IMG/VR virus record: IMGVR_UViG_3300021471_000005
Location: 1 to 34,853 of that record
Source: a virus
Direction: 5' to 3' (one strand)
DNA: 34,853 nucleotides
Shown: positions 1 through 26,114 of the stretch, one piece after another
Layout: every line of letters begins with the position of its first letter
Numbering within the stretch: the first letter of the stretch is position 1
The notes under the pieces: model-generated
The model's input: only the letters and a program-made list of their open reading frames with translations
What the model was told of the DNA's origin: nothing
The model's database searches: none
Translations under genes and position numbers: made by a program

Positions 1-81
1 TACGTCTACAACCCTTTTAGCATTAAGAGACTCATCATGTTCGTGCTTGGCTATTTCCTGCTGATTTCTAAGAGTCGTCAT
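1..81 (-). CDS. 5' part of the small fibre-associated gene (duplicate of 34727-34807)
   Basis: This is the first 27 codons (beginning MTTLRNQQEIAKHEHDES) of the 83-residue gene that is complete at 34556-34807. It appears here only because the circular contig was cut inside the gene. The start ATG (81-79) overlaps the portal stop TGA (83-81) by one base, so the two genes are adjacent and probably translationally coupled on the circular genome. It should not be counted as a separate gene. Confidence 0.9.
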   Translation of the reverse strand, partial: MTTLRNQQEIAKHEHDESLNAKRVVDV

Positions 82-127
82 CAGGACCTCCTAGCAATAA
101 AAATGTGCCTCGTGTTAGGGTGACTTA
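1..127. repeat. Terminal direct repeat, left copy
   Basis: Bases 1-127 are identical to 34727-34853. The sequence at the junction is coding: it holds the 3' end of the portal gene and the 5' end of the next gene. The repeat is therefore best read as the overlap of a circular assembly and not as a biological terminal repeat. A length of exactly 127 matches a common maximum assembler k-mer. The unique genome length is then 34,726 bp. Confidence 0.95.
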
Positions 128-2267
128 TAGGAGCCTTGTCATCAACAACCCATTTAGGATTGTGCTTCTTAGAAACATCCTTTACGATCTTAACGTAATC
201 AGACCAGCTAACGCCCTTCTCAGTTTTCTTCTTGATCTCTTTACTCATAGCAGTAGTTCTGCCATCGCTAGGACCTATGTGGAAGTATTTATAGTCAGCC
301 CCTGATTTAGTATATTGTGTTTGTCTTGCAGCAGCGCTAATCTTTGTAGTCTCTGTTCTAGCAATAGTTCTTAATCTTCCTTCAGAAGCTTCCGCTGTAT
401 CTTTCATTTCTGCAACCATTTGGTCCATAGAAAAACCTTCTGGGTTATCGTACGCCTTACGAATAACACTTGTCAATTGCTGGCTTACTTTTTCTGAGAG
501 ATCCTCGAATGCTTTCTGATAATTTGCGTCTCTTTTCAAACTTTCTATTACTTCTTTGTCAGAAGGTCCTATGGAGAATGACTCGCCGATGTTTTTGCTT
601 GTTGCTTCGGCTTCTTTTTTATATATGGAGTTTATTTTCTTACTGCTTTTAGACTTTAGAACTTTCTCGAACTCTTTAACTGATCCTTGAATCTTTTTAA
701 GTAGTTCTTTCTCGCTTAGTTTTTTTTTGAAATCAAACTTAGATAGTAATTTCTTGAACTCGTTTAATAAAGCACTCTCCACTTCTTTGGTTTGTTTAGG
801 AGGTACTGTTCCTAGTTTCTTATTAATGTCCTTTGCTGATTTGAAAAAGCTATTCATTGAAGGCTCGTTAGTTTGTAACTCTACCTCTCCTTCTGAGTAT
901 GAAAATTCTCCTGTATCATTCATAGTAACTTTTATTCCTAGCTCTGCTGTTTGTTTAGCAATCTCTAGTTCTTTGATACGTAGGTCTTTCTCGTAAGCCA
1001 TGTCTTCTTCTTTAGAAGGTACTATTTTCCACTCGTAGTCTGTGACTCCTATTTGTTCACAGATCCAAGGGATTATTTTATCGTTATAGATTGATTGTCC
1101 GAACTCAGTTCCTCGGTCAGTTACAGTTATTTGTAAACCTTCATTGTTAAGGCCTCCTCCTGTACTAACATCGTTTTGGAAAATAGGAGATACGTTGTAG
1201 ACAGCTCCTATTTGTGTTCTGATCTCGTTTCTTACTTCTGTGTATTGCATTTCTGACAGGTTACGCATGAAGTCGATCCATTTAACAGCGTCTGTGGATC
1301 CGTCTGCTTGGTGGATTAAAGGGTTTATAGCGTGAGGGTTCTTTCTTACTCTTGCCACGAACTGCCCCCAGAATTTTCTGAATCCTGTAGCGTTGCTAGT
1401 GTTTACAACTAACATTCCTTTCGGTACTTTGTCACCGCTGTAGTATTGTTTGATGTAATAATCCATGTTAATTAGAGTTATTACTTTATTGTATAATGAG
1501 TATAATGGGCTGAAACCGTATGTTTTTGTAGGTCTGTATTTAGAAACGTGTAGTATTTCGCTTGTATCGTAGTATTGGTATGAGCTTTCGCTGTTTCCTG
1601 AAGTTCCTACTTTTACTTTATAGCATGCTTTAAGGTTTTTGATACCGTTAGCGTTGTAAGCTTCTCTGCATGTCTCTCCTCTATTCTCTGGGTCTACGTA
1701 TATTGGCTCTCCGCTGTCGTCCCTTCCTAGTCTTTTCATGCTGTCGAAAAGTATTTCTACGCTTAAAGGATCAACTCTTAATAATTCTAAGACTTCCCCT
1801 CCTACGATTTCGTTATTTCCGTTTACTTTGTATTCTTTTCTTGCGAATATGTAAGCGTCATCTGCTATGTTTAGATCGTTTTCTAACTCCATGAATACTT
1901 CTTTTAATGTTTGTCCGTTGTAGTTAGCTTTAGATTCTATGTTCTTAATCTTGTTTAGCTGTAATTCGTTTTCGAATGTTGTTAGTGCTTTTTGTTCGAA
2001 ACCTCTTCGGAACATCTCGTTTCTTAGAGTGTTGAAAACATTTTGTAGAATATCTGAATAAACACTTAGTTGGTATAACTCTATTAGAGTGACTCGGCTA
2101 TCGAAAGTACCCCAGCTTTGTGTTCTGTTTAAACTGAAGAATGTGTTCTCATCTTCTGGACGTAGCTTGTTTCTGATGGTTTTGAATTCTTTAGAGCCTT
2201 TTTCTAGAGTTTCTATTTTCTGCGAGTCTGCAGAAGTGAATCTTTTAAATATATCGAAGAGTGCCAT
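81..2267 (-). CDS. Portal protein fused to a C-terminal MuF (SPP1 gp7-like) domain
   Basis: A 728-residue protein. The first ~450 residues look like a phage portal, the dodecameric ring through which DNA enters the head: they include the segment ending NEIRTQIGAVYNVSPIF and follow TerL in gene order. A lysine-rich coiled linker follows. The C-terminus from about residue 631 carries the MuF/gp7 minor-head signature, with ARTETT (636-641), DGRTT and HPNTRH (716-721). Portal and MuF are separate genes in many phages; here they are one polypeptide, so the MuF part would be made in portal stoichiometry. The start ATG lacks an SD and lies 29 nt from a TATA box, which suggests a leaderless mRNA. The stop overlaps the next gene (TGATG). 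Confidence 0.88.
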   Translation of the reverse strand: MALFDIFKRFTSADSQKIETLEKGSKEFKTIRNKLRPEDENTFFSLNRTQSWGTFDSRVTLIELYQLSVYSDILQNVFNTLRNEMFRRGFEQKALTTFENELQLNKIKNIESKANYNGQTLKEVFMELENDLNIADDAYIFARKEYKVNGNNEIVGGEVLELLRVDPLSVEILFDSMKRLGRDDSGEPIYVDPENRGETCREAYNANGIKNLKACYKVKVGTSGNSESSYQYYDTSEILHVSKYRPTKTYGFSPLYSLYNKVITLINMDYYIKQYYSGDKVPKGMLVVNTSNATGFRKFWGQFVARVRKNPHAINPLIHQADGSTDAVKWIDFMRNLSEMQYTEVRNEIRTQIGAVYNVSPIFQNDVSTGGGLNNEGLQITVTDRGTEFGQSIYNDKIIPWICEQIGVTDYEWKIVPSKEEDMAYEKDLRIKELEIAKQTAELGIKVTMNDTGEFSYSEGEVELQTNEPSMNSFFKSAKDINKKLGTVPPKQTKEVESALLNEFKKLLSKFDFKKKLSEKELLKKIQGSVKEFEKVLKSKSSKKINSIYKKEAEATSKNIGESFSIGPSDKEVIESLKRDANYQKAFEDLSEKVSQQLTSVIRKAYDNPEGFSMDQMVAEMKDTAEASEGRLRTIARTETTKISAAARQTQYTKSGADYKYFHIGPSDGRTTAMSKEIKKKTEKGVSWSDYVKIVKDVSKKHNPKWVVDDKAPISHPNTRHIFIARRS

Positions 2268-3061: not shown

Positions 3062-4405
3062 TTAAAAGGCAACGTCCAAGCTATCTCCTAAAGAAAAGTC
3101 TTCTTGGATTCCTGTTTCGAAGTGCATACGCATCATTAAAACGTCAGCATAATCGGGACTTCCGCTTAAGTTTTCTTTCATAAGTTCTTTCTTGATGATT
3201 CTTTTCTTTGCTTCATCGTTATCTACTTTGTCCCTTTTGATCTGTTCTAACTCTAAAGTTATTCTTTCTTGCTGTTCAGGGTTCTGTGGTTTAAGAAATA
3301 ATTCTCTTTTATTAACTAACTCTGCTAGTTTAAAATAACACTCGCTTCTTTTGTTAGCGTACTCTTTGTTGCGGAATGCTGAGTTTCCTCCGTGAAATGC
3401 CACTGCTCCTTCCAAGTAACTCTCTAAGTAATTACCTAAACCATCGCTGTCGTAAAGTATATGGCTTCTAGGAATACGGTATTTCTCCGCTAACATCTTT
3501 AGGTCTTCTTCTATTTCTCTTCCACTGGACTTTTTCTTGTCCAGTACTATTTCTCCTCTTAATCCTTTCCATACGCTTACTACGAATCGGTCTCTTCCTT
3601 GCATAGCGAGATCTGCTATTAAATATTTTTCTCCTTCTTTGTCCACGAACTCGTTTGTGAATAAGTCTGTTATAGCGTCGTATTCCATTAGTTTCGATGG
3701 GTCGTCATCGTATTCGAAGTTCCCGTAGTACAGTCTTTGTTTGCTTACTTCGTCTAGTTTTTTTAAGTTCTCTATGTAATGTTTAGAAATATGTGGGTTG
3801 TCTTGTACTAGGGCTTTTATAAAGTATCTGTATTTTGGAAGAGTTCCTTTCTGATCAGGCTTATAAAACTCTGAGTATAAGAAGTTCTTAGAAGGGTTAC
3901 TGCTGATAAAAAGTTTAGGTATTAGACCGAACTCATCTAGTTTATAACGTAAACGTGATGCTACAATATCTTTAGCTTTTTTAGTTACTTGCGATGCTTC
4001 GTCAATGAATGCTCCTGTGAACTCTGTACTACCTAAGCTATCGAACTCTGGATCGCTAGGGTATTTAAAAAGATCTTTAAGGTATACTTCTGATCCGTTG
4101 CTGAATTTAATATATCCTGCTTGTGAATTGTAACTGTAATGGGTTCCTGCTTTTAACTCCCATTGTTTGCATATATCGAAGAAAGTAAGTAGTGTTGATT
4201 CTTTGAGGCTTTTAAGAATAGCCCTTCCTAATAGGTATCTTGTTCCTGGGTATCTTAAGCAGCAAGTGATTATCCAAGCACATCCTACGTAGCTTTTACC
4301 TCCTCCTGCCCCTCCTCCGTAGAATAGTTCTGTTACTTCTTTGTCTTCAGTTAGTATCTTGAAGGCTTGTAGTTGTTTTTCGGAGGGTGTGAATGTTATC
4401 TTCAT
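3062..4405 (-). CDS. terL: Terminase large subunit
   Basis: A 447-residue packaging motor ATPase and nuclease. Walker A is GGGAGGGKS (30-38) and Walker B is GAFIDEA with D135/E136. An RNase H-like nuclease domain follows, with candidate metal ligands D265 (LIADLAMQG), D319/D321 (ILYDSDG) and D418/D421 (SPDYADVL). The length is normal for the family. It translocates DNA into the prohead through the portal and cuts the concatemer. Its start overlaps the stop of the upstream 80-residue gene by 4 bp (ATGA), and it stands a few small genes after terS in the same apparent operon. Confidence 0.95.
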   Translation of the reverse strand: MKITFTPSEKQLQAFKILTEDKEVTELFYGGGAGGGKSYVGCAWIITCCLRYPGTRYLLGRAILKSLKESTLLTFFDICKQWELKAGTHYSYNSQAGYIKFSNGSEVYLKDLFKYPSDPEFDSLGSTEFTGAFIDEASQVTKKAKDIVASRLRYKLDEFGLIPKLFISSNPSKNFLYSEFYKPDQKGTLPKYRYFIKALVQDNPHISKHYIENLKKLDEVSKQRLYYGNFEYDDDPSKLMEYDAITDLFTNEFVDKEGEKYLIADLAMQGRDRFVVSVWKGLRGEIVLDKKKSSGREIEEDLKMLAEKYRIPRSHILYDSDGLGNYLESYLEGAVAFHGGNSAFRNKEYANKRSECYFKLAELVNKRELFLKPQNPEQQERITLELEQIKRDKVDNDEAKKRIIKKELMKENLSGSPDYADVLMMRMHFETGIQEDFSLGDSLDVAF

Positions 4406-4644
4406 CTTTTATAGCTGGGTAGTTCTCCTTCGTATATGAATAGCTCGAACTTCTTTTTGGCTATAAGGTAGTTCATATCTTGGAGGTCTATCCCTAGTTT
4501 TCTTTCAGCGTTTAAAACATAATTCCTATATACGTGGAAGTCCAGTTTTATGTGGTTTGTTATTTTTGGTTCTTTTTCATAGCTTCTTTGGTACTTTTTT
4601 AGTAGCTCTTCTAAGTCTTCCTTGTAGTTTGTTGGTACTTCCAT
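4402..4644 (-). CDS. Small protein of unknown function upstream of terL
   Basis: An 80-residue, charged, mostly helical protein (starts MEVPTNYKEDLEELLKKY) with no recognised domain. Its stop overlaps the terL start in an ATGA arrangement, implying coupled translation. It is one of four short genes between terS and terL. Confidence 0.7.
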   Translation of the reverse strand: MEVPTNYKEDLEELLKKYQRSYEKEPKITNHIKLDFHVYRNYVLNAERKLGIDLQDMNYLIAKKKFELFIYEGELPSYKR

Positions 4645-4651
4645 TTTTGTT

Positions 4652-4867
4652 TTATTTATAACATAGGTATTTTTTAGCGTATGTTTCCATTACGTTTATG
4701 GCTCTGTCCCCGTAAACATTTTGTATGTCCAGCCAGTCTATGTTTGTTTTGTTTTCTCTTTTAATGTATTGTGATTGTTTGTTGCTGTAGGTTTTTACTA
4801 GTTCTCCTAGGTCTATCCTGCAACAGTTACTTATGTCTACTAGTTTTTCTATGTGTTCGTCTTTCAT
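4652..4867 (-). CDS. Small protein of unknown function
   Basis: A 71-residue protein (starts MKDEHIEKLVDISNCCRID), not recognised. It starts 2 nt after the stop of the upstream 96-residue gene and 7 nt separate it from the 80-residue gene, so it belongs to the terS-terL operon. The ATG lies 3 nt after a GGAGGAATAA-type ribosome site at the end of the upstream gene. Confidence 0.7.
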   Translation of the reverse strand: MKDEHIEKLVDISNCCRIDLGELVKTYSNKQSQYIKRENKTNIDWLDIQNVYGDRAINVMETYAKKYLCYK

Positions 4868-4869
4868 TT

Positions 4870-5160
4870 TTATTCCTCCCAGCTATTTAAATATTCTTCA
4901 AATAGAATTATTTGCATGTTGTCCGCGTCTCCGTGAGTGTATCTTTCGTTTGCTTTTTTACTGCATTGACTCCATATTTCTTTCACTCTTTGTTTGCTCA
5001 AACAGTGTTCTGCGACAGTTTCTTTATCATACTGTTTTTTTAACACTACGCCCATTTTAGAAGGGTCGAAGATATTTTGAAATTCATCATAAAAACAATA
5101 ATAATCCTTTAAGGTTATTTTCCCATCAACACTTACAGAAGCTGTATGCTCCTGGACCAC
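4870..5160 (-). CDS. Small protein of unknown function, GTG start
   Basis: A 96-residue acidic protein (ends EEYLNSWEE), not recognised. The reading frame begins at GTG 5160, inside the 3' end of the preceding gene with which it overlaps by 28 bp. No better in-frame ATG exists before residue ~36. An upstream AGTAGGTGG is only a mediocre SD. The start is uncertain; the ORF itself is well placed in the operon. Confidence 0.6.
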   Translation of the reverse strand: MVQEHTASVSVDGKITLKDYYCFYDEFQNIFDPSKMGVVLKKQYDKETVAEHCLSKQRVKEIWSQCSKKANERYTHGDADNMQIILFEEYLNSWEE

Positions 5161-14113: not shown

Positions 14114-14338
14114 CTACTCCGGTTTTACTTCTTTAAAATAATATTCTCCAATAGCTACAGCAGCCTCAACGATACCACCTGCAATAATACTAGCCACAGC
14201 TGAATCTGTAATCAAATACATAATAACACCTGAAACCATAGTGATAGCGGTTTTCTTTCTTTTAACAATCCACTGAGTTAAATCCCATCCTAACATGCTG
14301 AAAGCTGGGCTGTTCCATATACTTTTTTTATTCACCAT
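14114..14338 (-). CDS. Small membrane protein, holin candidate
   Basis: A 74-residue protein. A basic N-terminal part (IVKRKK at about 26-31) precedes one or two hydrophobic segments (about 34-62, AITMVSGVIMYLI and AVASIIAGGIVEAAVAIG) and a short charged tail. ATG 14338 is chosen because GGTGA lies exactly upstream; the GTG at 14347 is part of that SD. Its place beside the peptidase gene suggests a holin-like role in lysis, which is inference. Confidence 0.6.
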   Translation of the reverse strand: MVNKKSIWNSPAFSMLGWDLTQWIVKRKKTAITMVSGVIMYLITDSAVASIIAGGIVEAAVAIGEYYFKEVKPE

Positions 14339-14519
14339 TATTTTCACCTTTTTCTAATTCTAGTAACGAAGAGATCTGACTGTTGAGTTTTTCTAGTTCT
14401 TCTTTTTGAACTCTTATTTCTAAGTTGTTCCTTTCGTCTCCTCCGCTAAGTATAAAACGTTCCTCTACTTCTTTGTCTGCGTAACAAAAAACTGAGTCTG
14501 CGTACATTATGTGATCCAT
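14328..14519 (-). CDS. Small charged protein of unknown function
   Basis: A 63-residue protein. The C-terminal coiled coil is about 32-58 (EIRVQKEELEKLNSQISSLL). GGAGGAATAAA precedes the ATG. It lies between the peptidase and the membrane protein and overlaps the latter. It could be a lysis regulator or structural cofactor; no recognised domain. Confidence 0.65.
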   Translation of the reverse strand: MDHIMYADSVFCYADKEVEERFILSGGDERNNLEIRVQKEELEKLNSQISSLLELEKGENNGE

Positions 14520-14521
14520 TT

Positions 14522-15289
14522 TTATTCCTCCAATTGTACTGTCCAGTAATCGAAACCGTACTTTTTTAAATGAGTTGCTTCGATATATAAGTATCCTTTA
14601 TCTCCTCTGTAATCCCAACTGTTCTTGACGATGTAATGTTTTTTCCCTTTCAACATCTTATATCCTGCAAGTGTCATGGCGTGTCCTCCGCCTGTTGGTG
14701 TTGTTGATTCTATGAAACCATCCTTATTATTGTAAAAGCTATTATTAACACAAATACCAAATACGATAGGATTCCCTTCAGATAAACATTTGTCCATTTC
14801 ACTTTTTAGAACCCTCTCATAAGTACATTTATGTTCCAAGATCATTTCTTTAAAAAGAGAACCTATGTTGTATGCTTCTTTTGTTGGTGCTCTTAAGTAA
14901 TTTGGTTTAAAAGGCATTAAAGATTCATAAGTAAAACCCTTATCTAGTACGGCTTTGAACATGTTACGAAGAAAAACACCCTCATTCTTTCCTTGCTTTC
15001 CTTCTAGTTTTCTAGCATTATACCAACAAAACAAAGGGCTGAACTTTCTTTTCAGACCTAGCTTTTCTTTTATTTCGTGTTCGAATAAAGCAGTTACTGC
15101 GAAACCAGTGCAAGCGTTAGTGCTTCTTTGGTCTTTAACATAAGGAAAGTTACTTCTCAGATCAACTTCAGGTAATGCCTTGTCTATTGTTGGTTTGTAT
15201 CTGTGATCTCTTTTATCTGAAGGCTGAGGAGTTATGCCTGCTATTTTTGAATATTTTCTTTTATTAAGGAATGTTCTTAGCCATCTCAT
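14522..15289 (-). CDS. Papain-like (C1 family) cysteine peptidase, candidate lysin
   Basis: A 255-residue protein with a complete C1 catalytic set: oxyanion Q54 and nucleophile C60 (KDQRSTNACTGFA), H203 (GGGHAMTLAGY) and N223 (VKNSW). No signal peptide and no inhibitory pro-region of animal type are seen; the ~45-residue N-terminus is basic. It sits beside a holin-like protein at the end of the tail region. An archaeal virus needs to open a proteinaceous envelope or S-layer, so a lytic peptidase is plausible; virion maturation or entry is an alternative. The start overlaps the upstream 44-residue gene (ATGA). Confidence 0.85.
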   Translation of the reverse strand: MRWLRTFLNKRKYSKIAGITPQPSDKRDHRYKPTIDKALPEVDLRSNFPYVKDQRSTNACTGFAVTALFEHEIKEKLGLKRKFSPLFCWYNARKLEGKQGKNEGVFLRNMFKAVLDKGFTYESLMPFKPNYLRAPTKEAYNIGSLFKEMILEHKCTYERVLKSEMDKCLSEGNPIVFGICVNNSFYNNKDGFIESTTPTGGGHAMTLAGYKMLKGKKHYIVKNSWDYRGDKGYLYIEATHLKKYGFDYWTVQLEE

Positions 15290-20463: not shown

Positions 20464-20910
20464 TTATTGTTGAGCTCCCCCTACACTTATAGTTAAGTTA
20501 CCTGGTAATATACTTGGTTTTTCTGCTGCAAAATCTAAACTGAAATCACCTACAATGCCTAATTTGTTAGTAATATTAGCAACTGTTGAATAAATACTTA
20601 TAGTGTATAAGTCTTCAAGACCGCTAGTTATGAATACGTTGTCTAAGTAATCTACTTTTTCTTGTATTGTTTTAACTGTAGAACCATAAGTACCATTAGA
20701 AGCGTCTCCTTCAGTAGTTCTTAATTGGAACGGTACACGAATATTCTTTTCTCTTCCTAAGTTAATTATGATTGCATCTTCCGCATCACCATCAGGAAGG
20801 CTTTGCTTTAAAAACTTTGTAGTCATAGCATAACCTGCGCTTTTAACTTCCGCTTCTTGGAATCTAAAAACAAGAGAGTTTTTGTTTGTTATTTCTATAC
20901 TGTAAACCAT
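20464..20910 (-). CDS. Distal tail/hub-associated protein
   Basis: A 148-residue, beta-rich protein (starts MVYSIEITNKNSLVFRFQEA) in the position usually taken by the distal tail protein, between tape measure and hub. No motif proves the function. GGTGGTGGATATT precedes the ATG, whose first base overlaps the tape measure stop. The C-terminus (LPGNLTISVGGAQQ) is compatible with a ring-forming tail-tip protein. Confidence 0.6.
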   Translation of the reverse strand: MVYSIEITNKNSLVFRFQEAEVKSAGYAMTTKFLKQSLPDGDAEDAIIINLGREKNIRVPFQLRTTEGDASNGTYGSTVKTIQEKVDYLDNVFITSGLEDLYTISIYSTVANITNKLGIVGDFSLDFAAEKPSILPGNLTISVGGAQQ

Positions 20911-22040
20911 TAATATCCACCACCCATATTTACTTCTTTAAGGATTATTTGTCCAATGTCTCTAGCTACTTCTTCTGTGATCAAACCACCGTTAATAGAT
21001 ACGTTTATGTTTGCTGATCCAGATCCTCCTCCTAACGCGGAAGGGTCCTTTGTAGCTATTAAATAATCTGAAGGGTTAGTTCTTATAATATCTCCTGTTG
21101 GAGTGATTATAGCGTCTGTAACTGAGCTTCCTCCGCTCCCTCCTTTGCTGCTTTTTCTGCTAAATAGACTTTTGATCTTATCAGAGATCCATTGACCAAT
21201 ATTTTTCAGAGCATCAAATGAAGATTTAAATGTTGTAACTAGACTGTCCCAGATCCACTGTCCGAATCCTTTTAACAAATCCCAGGCTTTAGTGAATACA
21301 TCCACCAAACCATCCCAGATCCACTGTCCGAATCCTTTCAATACATCTAGTGATTTTTGCAACCATGCAATAAATGTTTTCCAAGTCTGAGTTAACCATT
21401 CAATAAAAGTAGATAGTTTTCCTGAGAGCCATTCTACAAACTGCATGAACACACTTCCTGCCCATTGCCACATTTGTTTAAAAAGAATCCATAATGCTTC
21501 TAAACCCATACCTACATAGTAACCTATTTTTATGAAAGTTTCAATAATCCACTTACCAGCAGCAGCCACAGCTATGCCCACAGCAGCAATTAATAAAGCA
21601 GGAGCTCCAGCTATAGCTAAAGCTGCAGCAGCTAAACCTCCAAGGATGACTCCACCCCATAAAGATAATTGTTTCCCCATGGATCCAACGCCTACTTTTC
21701 CTTCTTCGTCTTGTCCAACGACTCCTCCAACATCACTATCTGTGGCGAACGCCTTGTTTAAAAATTTGTATAATAATAAACCTACTTTGATAAATAAAAT
21801 AAGGAACGGTTTAAGAATAGGAAATAAAGCTGTAACTAATAAACCAGCAATAGCAGACAAAGGCTCAAATAAAGACTTCACGCTAGACAACAAACTACCT
21901 AATAGTCCTCCAACTAACCCTCCTGCGAAAGCTCCTCCTCCTGATTTCTTATCAGCTTTAGAACTTTCTTTGGCAATACTCTTACCTGCTTGTTTTGCTT
22001 CTTGTTGGTCAAAACCAACTCTCCAAATCATTTCAGCCAT
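20910..22040 (-). CDS. Tape measure protein (short)
   Basis: A 376-residue protein directly after the G/GT chaperones. It has glycine-rich hydrophobic segments (about 36-55, 60-92, 128-162) and a Trp-rich amphipathic region. In the latter, LKGFGQWIWD occurs at 234-243 and 256-265 and LKNIGQWISD at 278-287, an exact 22-residue (2 x 11) period typical of tape measures; the DNA shows the same 66-bp repeat (near 21249 and 21315). At about 1.5 angstrom per residue the tail tube would be roughly 55 nm or less, short for a siphovirus. GGAGCAAAATAAAT precedes the ATG. Confidence 0.8.
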   Translation of the reverse strand: MAEMIWRVGFDQQEAKQAGKSIAKESSKADKKSGGGAFAGGLVGGLLGSLLSSVKSLFEPLSAIAGLLVTALFPILKPFLILFIKVGLLLYKFLNKAFATDSDVGGVVGQDEEGKVGVGSMGKQLSLWGGVILGGLAAAALAIAGAPALLIAAVGIAVAAAGKWIIETFIKIGYYVGMGLEALWILFKQMWQWAGSVFMQFVEWLSGKLSTFIEWLTQTWKTFIAWLQKSLDVLKGFGQWIWDGLVDVFTKAWDLLKGFGQWIWDSLVTTFKSSFDALKNIGQWISDKIKSLFSRKSSKGGSGGSSVTDAIITPTGDIIRTNPSDYLIATKDPSALGGGSGSANINVSINGGLITEEVARDIGQIILKEVNMGGGY

Positions 22041-22042
22041 AT

Positions 22043-22581
22043 TTATTTTGCTCCTAACATTTTAGCTAATGCTTTAAACCTTGCTTCTTCCTCGGCAGCT
22101 CTTCGTCTCATACCATAATATTCTATGGCTTTAACCATCTCAATATTTAACTCATCGAGATCTATAGGGAATCCTAAAAGTAATAAGTTGGAATAACGAA
22201 TTACTTGAGCCGCTTTGGGAGATAAACGGTTAATACTTTTTGGAGCTTTAAGAACATTCCTAAGCTCCTTTTCTAGTTTGGGTTTCCACCTTGAGTTAAC
22301 CCTGACATAACGTCTTTTTCGAAATATTCTTTGTAAATTCTTTTAGCTTCAAAACCTTCTATCTTATCAACATCCAATCCTTTGATGGTCTCTAAGCAAG
22401 AAATACTCATACCCATCATATCAATGTCACCTTTAATAGTTACTGATTCATCTTTGCCAAAAGAAAGCTCATTAATAGGGATGTGTTTTCTCGCAATACC
22501 AATTGCTTTTCTATATCCTAGTCTATTAACTTCTACTTCTACTTCAGTCCCGTCAACATATTTTACTGTTTCTTTTCCCAT
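22043..22581 (-). CDS. Tail assembly chaperone GT, made by -1 ribosomal frameshift
   Basis: Ribosomes slipping -1 at CCCAAAC (22282-22276) would bypass the TAG at 22275-22273 and read 77 more codons (LEKELRNVLKAPKS and on, ending AKMLGAK) to TAA at 22045-22043, giving 179 residues. The extension frame has no ATG of its own near its beginning and fills the gap up to the tape measure gene exactly (3 nt). In long-tailed phages the G/GT pair coats the tape measure before tube assembly. The sequence signals here are complete: heptamer, 7-nt spacer, hairpin. Confidence 0.82.
22242..22282 (-). promoter_or_regulatory. Programmed -1 frameshift site with stimulatory hairpin
   Basis: On the minus strand C-CCA-AAC is in the correct phase (X XXY YYZ) as the last two codons of G, followed by TAGAAAA (7 nt) and a hairpin. 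In the hairpin GGAGCTT (22268-22262) pairs perfectly with AAGCTCC (22248-22242) around a 13-nt loop; an alternative 10-bp bulged stem is also possible. Phase, spacing and downstream open frame all agree. Confidence 0.82.
22273..22581 (-). CDS. Tail assembly chaperone G (unshifted product)
   Basis: A 102-residue product of normal translation, ending GLTQGGNPN at the TAG right after the slippery site. GGAGAGTAAAAA precedes the ATG. It lies between tail tube and tape measure genes, the fixed position of lambda gpG-type chaperones. It is small and charged, with no enzyme motif. The bulk product is expected to be G, with GT a minority. Confidence 0.8.
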   Translation of the reverse strand: MGKETVKYVDGTEVEVEVNRLGYRKAIGIARKHIPINELSFGKDESVTIKGDIDMMGMSISCLETIKGLDVDKIEGFEAKRIYKEYFEKDVMSGLTQGGNPN

Positions 22582-22604: not shown

Positions 22605-23513
22605 TTATAGATCTCCTGATACTGAGAGATCGATTGCTTCGTAATCATAACTAATTACTTTTTTAGTATTATCAGTGGATAAATCTATGCTTCTTCCGAA
22701 ACTTCTAGTTTTAGCCATTGTGAAAACGTGTTCGTTATCAGTTCCTCGCGATAAAGTAACTACTAGAGCTTCATCGCTTCTATCTTCAGTGTAACCAAAC
22801 TCTTGGTTGTCGTCTACGTTTGCTTCGTAACTTCCGCTAAGATCTAGTCTGTGTTGTAAAGCGCATTGGATAAGTCTTCGTTCCCCAGCTGCCACTTCTT
22901 CGATTCCACGTCCTTCGTCGTCTGTAACATTCCAATTCCCTGATAAGGATATATTGTTAAGTACATACGCTGTCCCACCGATAGTTATTGAAGTGTCTAA
23001 GTAACTAATCATATCATCTGTGTTTGTAGTTACTGATAATGTTTCTGTATCTTTAGATAATTTTTTAGCTAAACAGTTAACTGTGATGCTGATAGTTTCT
23101 CCGTTAGATGCTGTGATTTCCCAGTCTTTACAAACCATTCCGTTAATAAGACCGATTTTATCTGTTAAATATTGTACTTTCATACTAACTGAGTTGCTAC
23201 TGTTAAGAGTTGTTACTGCATAATCTGTACCGTCATCAGAGTAAACTCCCATGCAGAACTTTAAAAGATTTGGAAGAGCTGCTTTGCTTAATTTAGTTTC
23301 AACGCTAACGTTAACCCAGTAAAGTCCGTCTTCGAATACTGAACTTAAATGGCCAGAGTTTAAACTAGACATTTTTTCAGTGCTTTCTTCTTCATTAATA
23401 GTGACTTTTTGTACGTGTCCCCAATCTACCGCTGTGAAAGGAGCAGGAGTTGTTCCGAAAGTACTTTCTTCAGCTACGATGTATTTATTACCAACATTTG
23501 ATATGCAAACCAT
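22605..23513 (-). CDS. Major tail tube protein
   Basis: A 302-residue, beta-rich protein with a typical tail-tube opening (KYIVAEESTFGTTPAPFTAV) and long Thr/Ser-rich strands, preceding the G/GT chaperones. It forms the tube through which DNA is injected. AAAGGTAAAATAAA is the ribosome site. The length is normal for an archaeal siphovirus tube, possibly with an Ig-like C-terminal part (about 215-300). Confidence 0.75.
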   Translation of the reverse strand: MVCISNVGNKYIVAEESTFGTTPAPFTAVDWGHVQKVTINEEESTEKMSSLNSGHLSSVFEDGLYWVNVSVETKLSKAALPNLLKFCMGVYSDDGTDYAVTTLNSSNSVSMKVQYLTDKIGLINGMVCKDWEITASNGETISITVNCLAKKLSKDTETLSVTTNTDDMISYLDTSITIGGTAYVLNNISLSGNWNVTDDEGRGIEEVAAGERRLIQCALQHRLDLSGSYEANVDDNQEFGYTEDRSDEALVVTLSRGTDNEHVFTMAKTRSFGRSIDLSTDNTKKVISYDYEAIDLSVSGDL

Positions 23514-24080: not shown

Positions 24081-24094
24081 TTATAATACTAACT
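24081..24094 (-). promoter_or_regulatory. Degenerate copy of the late promoter
   Basis: On the minus strand GTTAGTATTATAA followed by AAACAAAACA resembles the GTTATATTTATAAA promoters and shares their ACAAAA downstream flank. It lies 50-80 nt before the tail-terminator start and overlaps the end of the connector gene. It may be weak or decayed. Confidence 0.35.
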
Positions 24095-24706
24095 TTGGAA
24101 CTCAGTATTATTGTTTAGGATGTTTTTGATTTCTTCTTTCCAGTTATTTTTAGTACTGTCCCAATTAGGCTGTCCTTCTCCTGATCTGGTGAATAAAACA
24201 GTGCTGAATTCTGGACTGTTAAGTACTTTCAAAGCAACCATCATTGTAGTGCAGTCTTCTATACCGCCTGAAACGCTTGATTCTCCGTAAGTATAACTGA
24301 TTCTGATACCATGAGGATATGTTCTAGTTATAGTGTTTAAGAAAACTACTCCGTTTTGTTTGTCAACCCAGTAATCAGCTCCACGTCCTTCTGTACGCGT
24401 AATTACTAGATCTTCCCATTCGCTACCAACCCATACCTCTAAAGAGATGATTGATATGTTTGATCTGTGAATCAAGTCAAATCTAATTCCTTGGCCTGAT
24501 CTATAAACTGAATTAGGATCAACGTATTCTTTAGTAATAGTTTTAGTTCTCCAAGCGTGAGATGTAGTATTATCTATTCTATCTTCGGCTCTGTTTATTA
24601 ATCCTGAAATAACTGCATCTGTAGGAGTGCTGTTTCCGTCAAAGTAATTATCAGGGAATCCAAGCAAGTTCGCTACTTTATCTACAGTAGTATATGTTAC
24701 AACCAT
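24089..24706 (-). CDS. Head-tail connector (gp6/Ad1-like) protein
   Basis: A 205-residue protein. The helical N-terminus VDKVANLLGF with ISGLINRAEDRIDNTTSHAW is the usual connector-adaptor opening; central strands and the C-terminal ALKVLNSPEF helix follow. It sits between portal ring and tail. The ATG has no SD, and a TATA box is centred about 26 nt upstream, so the transcript should be leaderless or nearly so. It is the first gene of the tail operon, after a terminator. Confidence 0.72.
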   Translation of the reverse strand: MVVTYTTVDKVANLLGFPDNYFDGNSTPTDAVISGLINRAEDRIDNTTSHAWRTKTITKEYVDPNSVYRSGQGIRFDLIHRSNISIISLEVWVGSEWEDLVITRTEGRGADYWVDKQNGVVFLNTITRTYPHGIRISYTYGESSVSGGIEDCTTMMVALKVLNSPEFSTVLFTRSGEGQPNWDSTKNNWKEEIKNILNNNTEFQS

Positions 24707-25025: not shown

Positions 25026-26114
25026 TTATAGAAGATCTCTAATTTTACCTTGTGCATTGAATCGAGTACAAACTAATTCACCAGCTAAGTAGTACATACC
25101 TTCTTTACCAAGCTTTCCTGTTTCGAAGAAGTTTTGGGATTCGAAGTATTGTACTGGCTGTTTAATGCCAATGTTAATGTAGTCTGTGTTCAAGAAGTAT
25201 ACACGTGACTTAGTATCTTTAGTTACGTCTTTATCTCGGATCACTGGAATAGCGTCGAATGCTGCTACTCTGATTCCTACATCGTTACCTGCTGCTGTTG
25301 CAATACCTTGGTCTCCAATGTTAATACTTACTCTTTCAGTTACGTATCGAGTTTGAGTGTTAACTAAAGCGTCAATGTCTCTTGCTGTATCGTATCCTGT
25401 GATGATAACGTTTGGTCGTTCACCAGAGTTTTCTTCAATTGTATCGATTGCTGTTCGTAGTAAAGTTTCAGTAATTGCTCGGTCTACACCTGAAGCGTGT
25501 GAAACGAATGCGTCGTAAGCTGTACTAGCTGATCGGTCGAAACCATAAATGTCTGCGTCCCCTGCTGTTAATAAAGCAGCTTCTTCTGACTGGCTGGAAC
25601 ATACACGGTCGATAGACTCGATGTTGTCTCCTGCTAGAGTATCAACGTCTCCGTGAAGCATTTTGTTTACGTGTGCAACGAATTCTTTTGCCATGTATTG
25701 TTTGATATGGTCGAATCCGATAGTATCGTCGTTTCCATCATCTAGTAATTCTTGTCGGTTACTCATATCGAAAGTTTTAACAACTTCTTTTAATGAGATG
25801 TTTGCAAGAGCCCAAGTAGGTTTAACAGTGTCTGGTAATGCTGCGTTTTCTGCTACTCCACCAGTACCTAGAGTACTTGATCGAGCTGTGATTACACGGA
25901 AACCTGTGTTAGCTAATGGTTTTTTTGGTAATACTCCCCAGGATTTACCTTCGTTATTTAGTAATTCCCATACAGCTTCGCCGTAGATTCGGTTGTATAC
26001 ACCAGTTGTTGAACTTAATACTGGAGCGTCTGCTTTCTGAACTGCTTGTGCAACTTCAGAATCTGCAGGACCATAGTATGCTTCTTTCATGTCGTTAATT
26101 GTTTTAAATTTCAT
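25026..26114 (-). CDS. Major capsid protein (HK97 fold)
   Basis: A 362-residue protein in the canonical place after protease-scaffold. It has features of HK97-type capsid proteins: a helical N-arm, ANISLKEVVKTFDMSNRQELLDD-like E-loop/spine region, central RPNVIITGYDTA P-domain strand, and C-terminal YFLNTDYINIG with FNAQGKIRDLL. GAGGATAATTAAA is a strong ribosome site. Codon use is unusual: I count CGA for ten of the seventeen arginines, whereas neighbours favour AGA and CGT. No obvious propeptide is present, so the separate scaffold should guide assembly. Confidence 0.85.
   Translation of the reverse strand: MKFKTINDMKEAYYGPADSEVAQAVQKADAPVLSSTTGVYNRIYGEAVWELLNNEGKSWGVLPKKPLANTGFRVITARSSTLGTGGVAENAALPDTVKPTWALANISLKEVVKTFDMSNRQELLDDGNDDTIGFDHIKQYMAKEFVAHVNKMLHGDVDTLAGDNIESIDRVCSSQSEEAALLTAGDADIYGFDRSASTAYDAFVSHASGVDRAITETLLRTAIDTIEENSGERPNVIITGYDTARDIDALVNTQTRYVTERVSINIGDQGIATAAGNDVGIRVAAFDAIPVIRDKDVTKDTKSRVYFLNTDYINIGIKQPVQYFESQNFFETGKLGKEGMYYLAGELVCTRFNAQGKIRDLL

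Follow-up and report, generated by a model that had tools for sequence, protein, structure and literature searches.

The contig analysed here, IMG/VR virus record IMGVR_UViG_3300021471_000005 (34,853 nucleotides (nt); hereafter the window, on whose whole length all coordinates are given), carries on its minus strand the genes for tail tube, G, a T segment in the -1 frame and tape measure, in this order. G and T are predicted to be joined by a programmed -1 ribosomal frameshift (Table 1). Two overlapping open reading frames between the tube and tape measure genes, of which the second lies in the -1 frame and lacks a start of its own, are the arrangement of the tail assembly chaperones G and GT. 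The last codons of G read GGA AAC CCA AAC TAG, with the in-phase heptamer in contact with the stop codon, and a spacer of 7 nt (22275-22269) lies between the heptamer and the stem of a hairpin. The T frame starts with CTA GAA AAG (LEKELR...) and terminates with TAA at 22045-22043; its product is LEKELRNVLKAPK...LGAK, 77 residues. Near the junction the T frame contains no ATG, GTG or TTG, the earliest being ATG 22138, 46 codons in, and its stop is separated from the tape measure ATG (22040) by 2 nt. The original prediction had given the slip site, the stop, the spacer, the perfect 7-bp stem and the startless frame of 77 codons correctly; only its distance of 3 nt between T and the tape measure ATG has to be corrected to 2 nt. 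Of the codon positions in the window's genes, 0.64% carry an in-phase X_XXY_YYZ site, and the probability that a random -1 frame stays open over 77 codons is ~0.009. Heptamer, hairpin and open -1 frame are real features of the window and go beyond chance.

Table 1 Features of the tail chaperone locus and other genes of the window discussed in the text
Feature	Coordinates	Strand	Remarks
Tail tube protein gene	22605..23513	-	Pfam Phage_tube_2 1.6e-8; phrog_290 tail 6.5e-12; 55-65% identity in six relatives; directly upstream of G
Gene G, predicted tail assembly chaperone, 102 amino acids (aa), 0 frame	22273..22581	-	between tube and tape measure; kept in six relatives
Slippery heptamer C_CCA_AAC, in phase	22276..22282	-	7/7 viruses have C_CCA_AA[C/T] here
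0-frame stop TAG of G	22273..22275	-	abuts heptamer; TAG in 6/7, TGA in 1/7, abutting in all
Hairpin 5' arm GGAGCTT	22262..22268	-	7 nt 3' of heptamer
Hairpin 3' arm AAGCTCC	22242..22248	-	same position in L011, L012, L019; not in L017, L018, L020
T segment, -1 frame, 77 codons + TAA	22043..22276	-	C-terminal part of GT
AGGAG, putative Shine-Dalgarno site of tape measure gene	22051..22055	-	inside T
Tape measure protein gene	20910..22040	-	matches to several tape measure families of PHROG (best 1.3e-8); 40-49% identity in relatives
Major capsid protein gene	25026..26114	-	tblastn matches archaeal viruses only: HVTV-1/-2, HCTV-1/-5/-16, Methanofastidiosa vir519
Portal gene with Mu F-like C-terminus	81..2267	-	14/14 phage-record matches are archaeal viruses
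Large terminase gene	3062..4405	-	48% identity to Flavobacterium phage 11b; further matches in Bacteroides and Cellulophaga phages

Relatives were fetched by capsid, tube and T homology and hence blind to the heptamer; these three queries succeeded, and G alone or the tape measure alone, used as a single-sequence pattern, retrieved no relatives among viral contigs. Six relatives (L011, L012, L017, L018, L019 and L020, with L010 and later duplicates representing contigs already in this set) have homologues of the tube, G, T and tape measure genes, and all of them keep the tube-G/T-tape measure order. The heptamer before the stop reads C_CCA_AAC in two and C_CCA_AAT in four of these relatives, and it is directly followed by TAG (five) or TGA (one). 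Their T frames of 77-84 codons share 42-66% amino acid identity with that of the window and begin with a conserved L..E[LF]R...PK. Because codon position 2 of the T frame diverges least in all six comparisons, T is under selection at the protein level. When the homologous viruses were aligned, heptamer and -1 frame were thus kept in 7/7, and neither a separate T start nor a decayed -1 frame, the outcomes named beforehand as speaking against a frameshift, was seen among the seven viruses. The source of the window is a metagenome contig, where a sequencing or assembly error could split one gene into G and T; the same -1 arrangement in seven separate contigs refutes this explanation, whose probability is negligible.

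The constraint on the slip site is found at synonymous positions. The residue before the proline is Asn, Asp or Ser, yet its codon ends in C every time (C-ending usage 9-60% per virus), and the proline codon is always CCA, against a usage of 15-58% per virus. The third bases at X and Y are fixed and the Z base of the heptamer is free (C or T). The product of the codon frequencies, computed by hand, is ~2e-8, a value that overstates the significance, the seven viruses being related. Fixed third bases next to a varying residue are a signature of slippage and not of protein constraint. Production of T by re-initiation or from an unusual start after termination of G, with no frameshift at all, could draw on a GGAG just past the G stop followed by ATG at 22257. 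However, this ATG lies in the G frame, not in the T frame, and yields only 18 codons; the earliest start in the T frame is downstream of the conserved beginning of T, and the fixed CCCAAA is left unexplained by re-initiation, which we consider very improbable.

We propose that G and GT are very probably made by programmed -1 ribosomal frameshifting, as in the original prediction and on the lambda G/GT model; the heptamer and -1 frame kept in seven of seven viruses support this. Most ribosomes would read G to its TAG and release the chaperone of 102 aa. A minority would slip one base back while tRNA-Pro occupies CCA and tRNA-Asn occupies AAC, so that the two tRNAs come to lie on CCC and AAA and the ribosome moves past the stop; both the slippage and its rate are what we infer from the site. 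The slipped ribosomes would add 77 residues and give GT, a protein of 179 aa with the junction NPN-LEKELR. If the lambda proteins are a guide, G and GT would form a coat around the tape measure protein, and T would recruit the subunits of the tail tube.

Several observations weigh against this interpretation. Neither Pfam nor PHROG gave a family match for G, and the fold matches of G and T all stay above an E-value of 0.001. The synonymous-shuffle folding test gave no hairpin close to the heptamer for L017, L018 and L020, and more distant relatives of the L075 type carry GGGGGGTTT at the junction, with no exact X_XXY_YYZ. On the supporting side, the AlphaFold model of G has a predicted local distance difference test (pLDDT) score of 86, and its weak fold matches among viral proteins are led by one from an uncultured archaeal virus (E-value 0.0026, probability 1.00); of the lower-ranking matches that carry a name, most are tail assembly chaperones. 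A fold search of the PDB with G returned nothing. T was modelled as three helices (pLDDT 91), and its fold search returned nothing informative. Together with the gene order, the analogy to lambda makes a chaperone role of G and GT a well-supported prediction.

The hairpin of the window consists of a perfect 7-bp stem with a 13-nt loop and a folding energy of -13.2 kcal/mol, a stable stem within the range of 5-9 nt downstream of the slip site. Folding energies of the 42 nt after the site were compared with those of 500 synonymous reshufflings of the -1 frame protein. The shuffled sequences of the window had a mean of -2.8 (standard deviation 2.4), and none of the 500 was as low as the native one. 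The same held for L011 (-15.0 against a shuffle mean of -2.4; 0/500) and L019 (-12.1 against -1.6; 0/500), and L012 reached p = 0.012. Further downstream in the three relatives that lack a hairpin near the site, only L020 had a significant fold, a long-range one within 110 nt. Covariation in the stem was overall not above the shuffled control, with one pair changed on both sides (C-G to U-A), and a Shine-Dalgarno-like stimulator upstream of the site was not supported against synonymous shuffles, except weakly in L018. The hairpin is therefore real in the window virus and strong in four of the seven viruses; it is no family-wide element. The cassette had been called complete with its hairpin, which stands for the heptamer and the -1 frame as conserved parts and does not stand for the hairpin, given its conservation in 4/7 and a covariation no better than shuffles. 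The hairpin probably boosts slippage in the window virus and three relatives and is not required across the clade. The heptamer always abutting a stop, the A-site codon AAC/AAU, which is mammalian-like, and the optional hairpin could also be read as a slip coupled to termination, in which the -1 shift in this clade would be driven by an archaeal release factor that is slow to recognise the stop, and not by RNA structure; we regard this reading as distinctly unlikely.

The host of the window virus is likely an archaeon, judging from its virion genes and from a close relative. With homologous capsid and portal genes the virus belongs to the capsid lineage of HVTV-1 and HCTV-1. All nine phage records matched by the capsid protein and all eight matched by a neck-region protein (24089-24706) are archaeal viruses, as are those matched by the portal. 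The sister virus L012, whose capsid is 83% identical, encodes an archaeal-type RFC small subunit with the motif LNASDERG, for which the best matches among solved proteins are archaeal RFCS; the same contig also encodes a PolB-like fragment and an XPB-like helicase. A search for MCM was negative in all of 15 records, a result of little weight, as the Pfam model also responds in bacterial controls. With a bacterial host the locus would be an ordinary bacteriophage G/GT cassette. The terminase, 48% identical to that of Flavobacterium phage 11b, argues against a simple archaeal ancestry; a PAPS-reductase-type protein has 46% identity to a Clostridioides phage, a recombination protein also matches bacterial phages, and neither a host genome nor a provirus turned up when bacterial and archaeal genomes were scanned twice. 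However, capsid, portal and neck-region protein match archaeal viruses only, and the RFC small subunit of L012 is archaeal in type. Moreover, 78% of the window genes have a Shine-Dalgarno match of 4 nt or more, compared with a background of 30%; such strong Shine-Dalgarno use fits archaea or most bacteria and argues against Bacteroidetes. A bacterial host therefore appears unlikely. The archaeal host named in the original prediction is thus made likely by the capsid, portal and neck-region matches and by the RFC of L012; the matches of terminase and PAPS-reductase-type protein to bacterial phages keep it short of proof.

In the lambda-type G/GT frameshift of long-tailed phages (Xu, Hendrix and Duda 2004, as cited in PMC5009743), G precedes the tape measure gene and -1 slippage adds T; the same is predicted in the window virus, whose G has no detectable sequence similarity to phage records. 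Among archaeal viruses, a G/GT -1 frameshift was reported in 2013 for the haloviruses HVTV-1, HCTV-1, HCTV-2 and HCTV-5 (Pietila 2013; Sencilo 2013; as cited in PMC5009743 and PMC8211752). Three of these viruses, HVTV-1, HCTV-1 and HCTV-5, have a capsid protein homologous to that of the window virus (32-35% identity), and the HVTV-1 and HCTV-1 records are annotated with joined tail assembly chaperones. In HVTV-1 and HCTV-1, the candidate site lies 27 nt before the stop, whereas C_CCA_AAC abuts the stop in the window virus. The haloviruses infect salt-loving archaea, whereas the archaeal host of the window virus is a prediction. For the archaeal virus Hardycor1 a G/GT site G_GGA_AAT was predicted in 2021 (PMC7911831); like that of the window it is an X_XXY_YYZ site near the end of G, with a different heptamer. 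For the HF1 group, +1 shifting has been predicted. In E. coli, highly shift-prone sites end in A_AAG (PMC5009743), whereas the second codon in the window clade is AAC or AAT. Experimental proof of -1 frameshifting by archaeal ribosomes is limited to fucA1 of Saccharolobus solfataricus according to a review of 2021 (~10% in vitro; PMC8211752). This is a cellular gene with the site A_AAA_AAT in which the shift was shown experimentally, whereas the window case is viral and predicted. The original prediction had called frameshifting of this kind in archaea rarely documented, which is true only for experiments; the arrangement with a canonical heptamer was already published for HVTV-1, HCTV-1/-2/-5 and Hardycor1. 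What sets the window case apart is the C_CCA_AAY heptamer, its invariant contact with the stop and the optional hairpin.

A -1 overlap immediately upstream of a tape-measure-like gene is shared by further clades of the HVTV-1/HCTV-1 capsid lineage, where the slip sites differ; these sites were compared by their position before that gene, not by G/T homology, and the assignments in L033 and L042 are doubtful. A large clade carries G_GGT_TTT or GGGGGGTTT at the junction, and further sites are C_CCT_TTG/A, A_AAA_AAA/T and, in HVTV-1 and HCTV-1, G_GGA_AAG/AAC. The comparison points to a -1 direction that is retained throughout the capsid lineage and a heptamer that differs between its clades. At the G/T junction of L060, L062, L075, L093, L094 and L097 we observed CAA/CAG GGG GGG TTT where close kin have G_GGT_TTT, and these viruses may slip differently. 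Slippage of RNA polymerase instead of the ribosome could shift the frame at the run of A at the L009 junction, and likewise at GGGGGGTTT; the C_CCA_AAC/T of the window clade holds no run of more than three bases and is fixed in codon phase, which makes polymerase slippage extremely improbable.

The C_CCA_AAY heptamer abutting a stop extends the short list of slip sites known from archaeal viruses by one type. The lineage offers a ready panel of natural sites on which the responses of archaeal ribosomes could be measured, a question with very little experimental data. The phenomenon itself was already described in related viruses. Because stop codons directly 3' of a slip site are known elsewhere, we claim no new mechanism, nor is one shown here.

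Some relatives combine head and tail genes of different kinds. The capsid of L009 is 78% identical to that of the window, and its G/T pair (4380-4933, with A_AAA_AAA abutting the stop) and tail module are different, which suggests exchange of tail modules between viruses of the group. L019 (L113:7473-9577, L113:13128-16794) has the same tube-G/T-tape measure module and head genes with no tblastn match to those of the window, again suggesting an exchange of head and tail. The 45.8 kb contig of L011 (L107:1006-5255, L108:5170-7269, L108:14605-20000) apparently carries two head modules, each with genes for a terminase, a portal, an S78-type protease and an SU10-type capsid; this double set is either a chimeric assembly or real.

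Elsewhere in the window, no Pfam match to a peptidoglycan hydrolase was found among the proteins searched. A papain-family cysteine protease (14522-15289; Peptidase_C1 1.7e-13) adjoins a small putative membrane protein (14114-14347), and the protease may be a lysin that acts on a proteinaceous cell wall, with the membrane protein as its holin.
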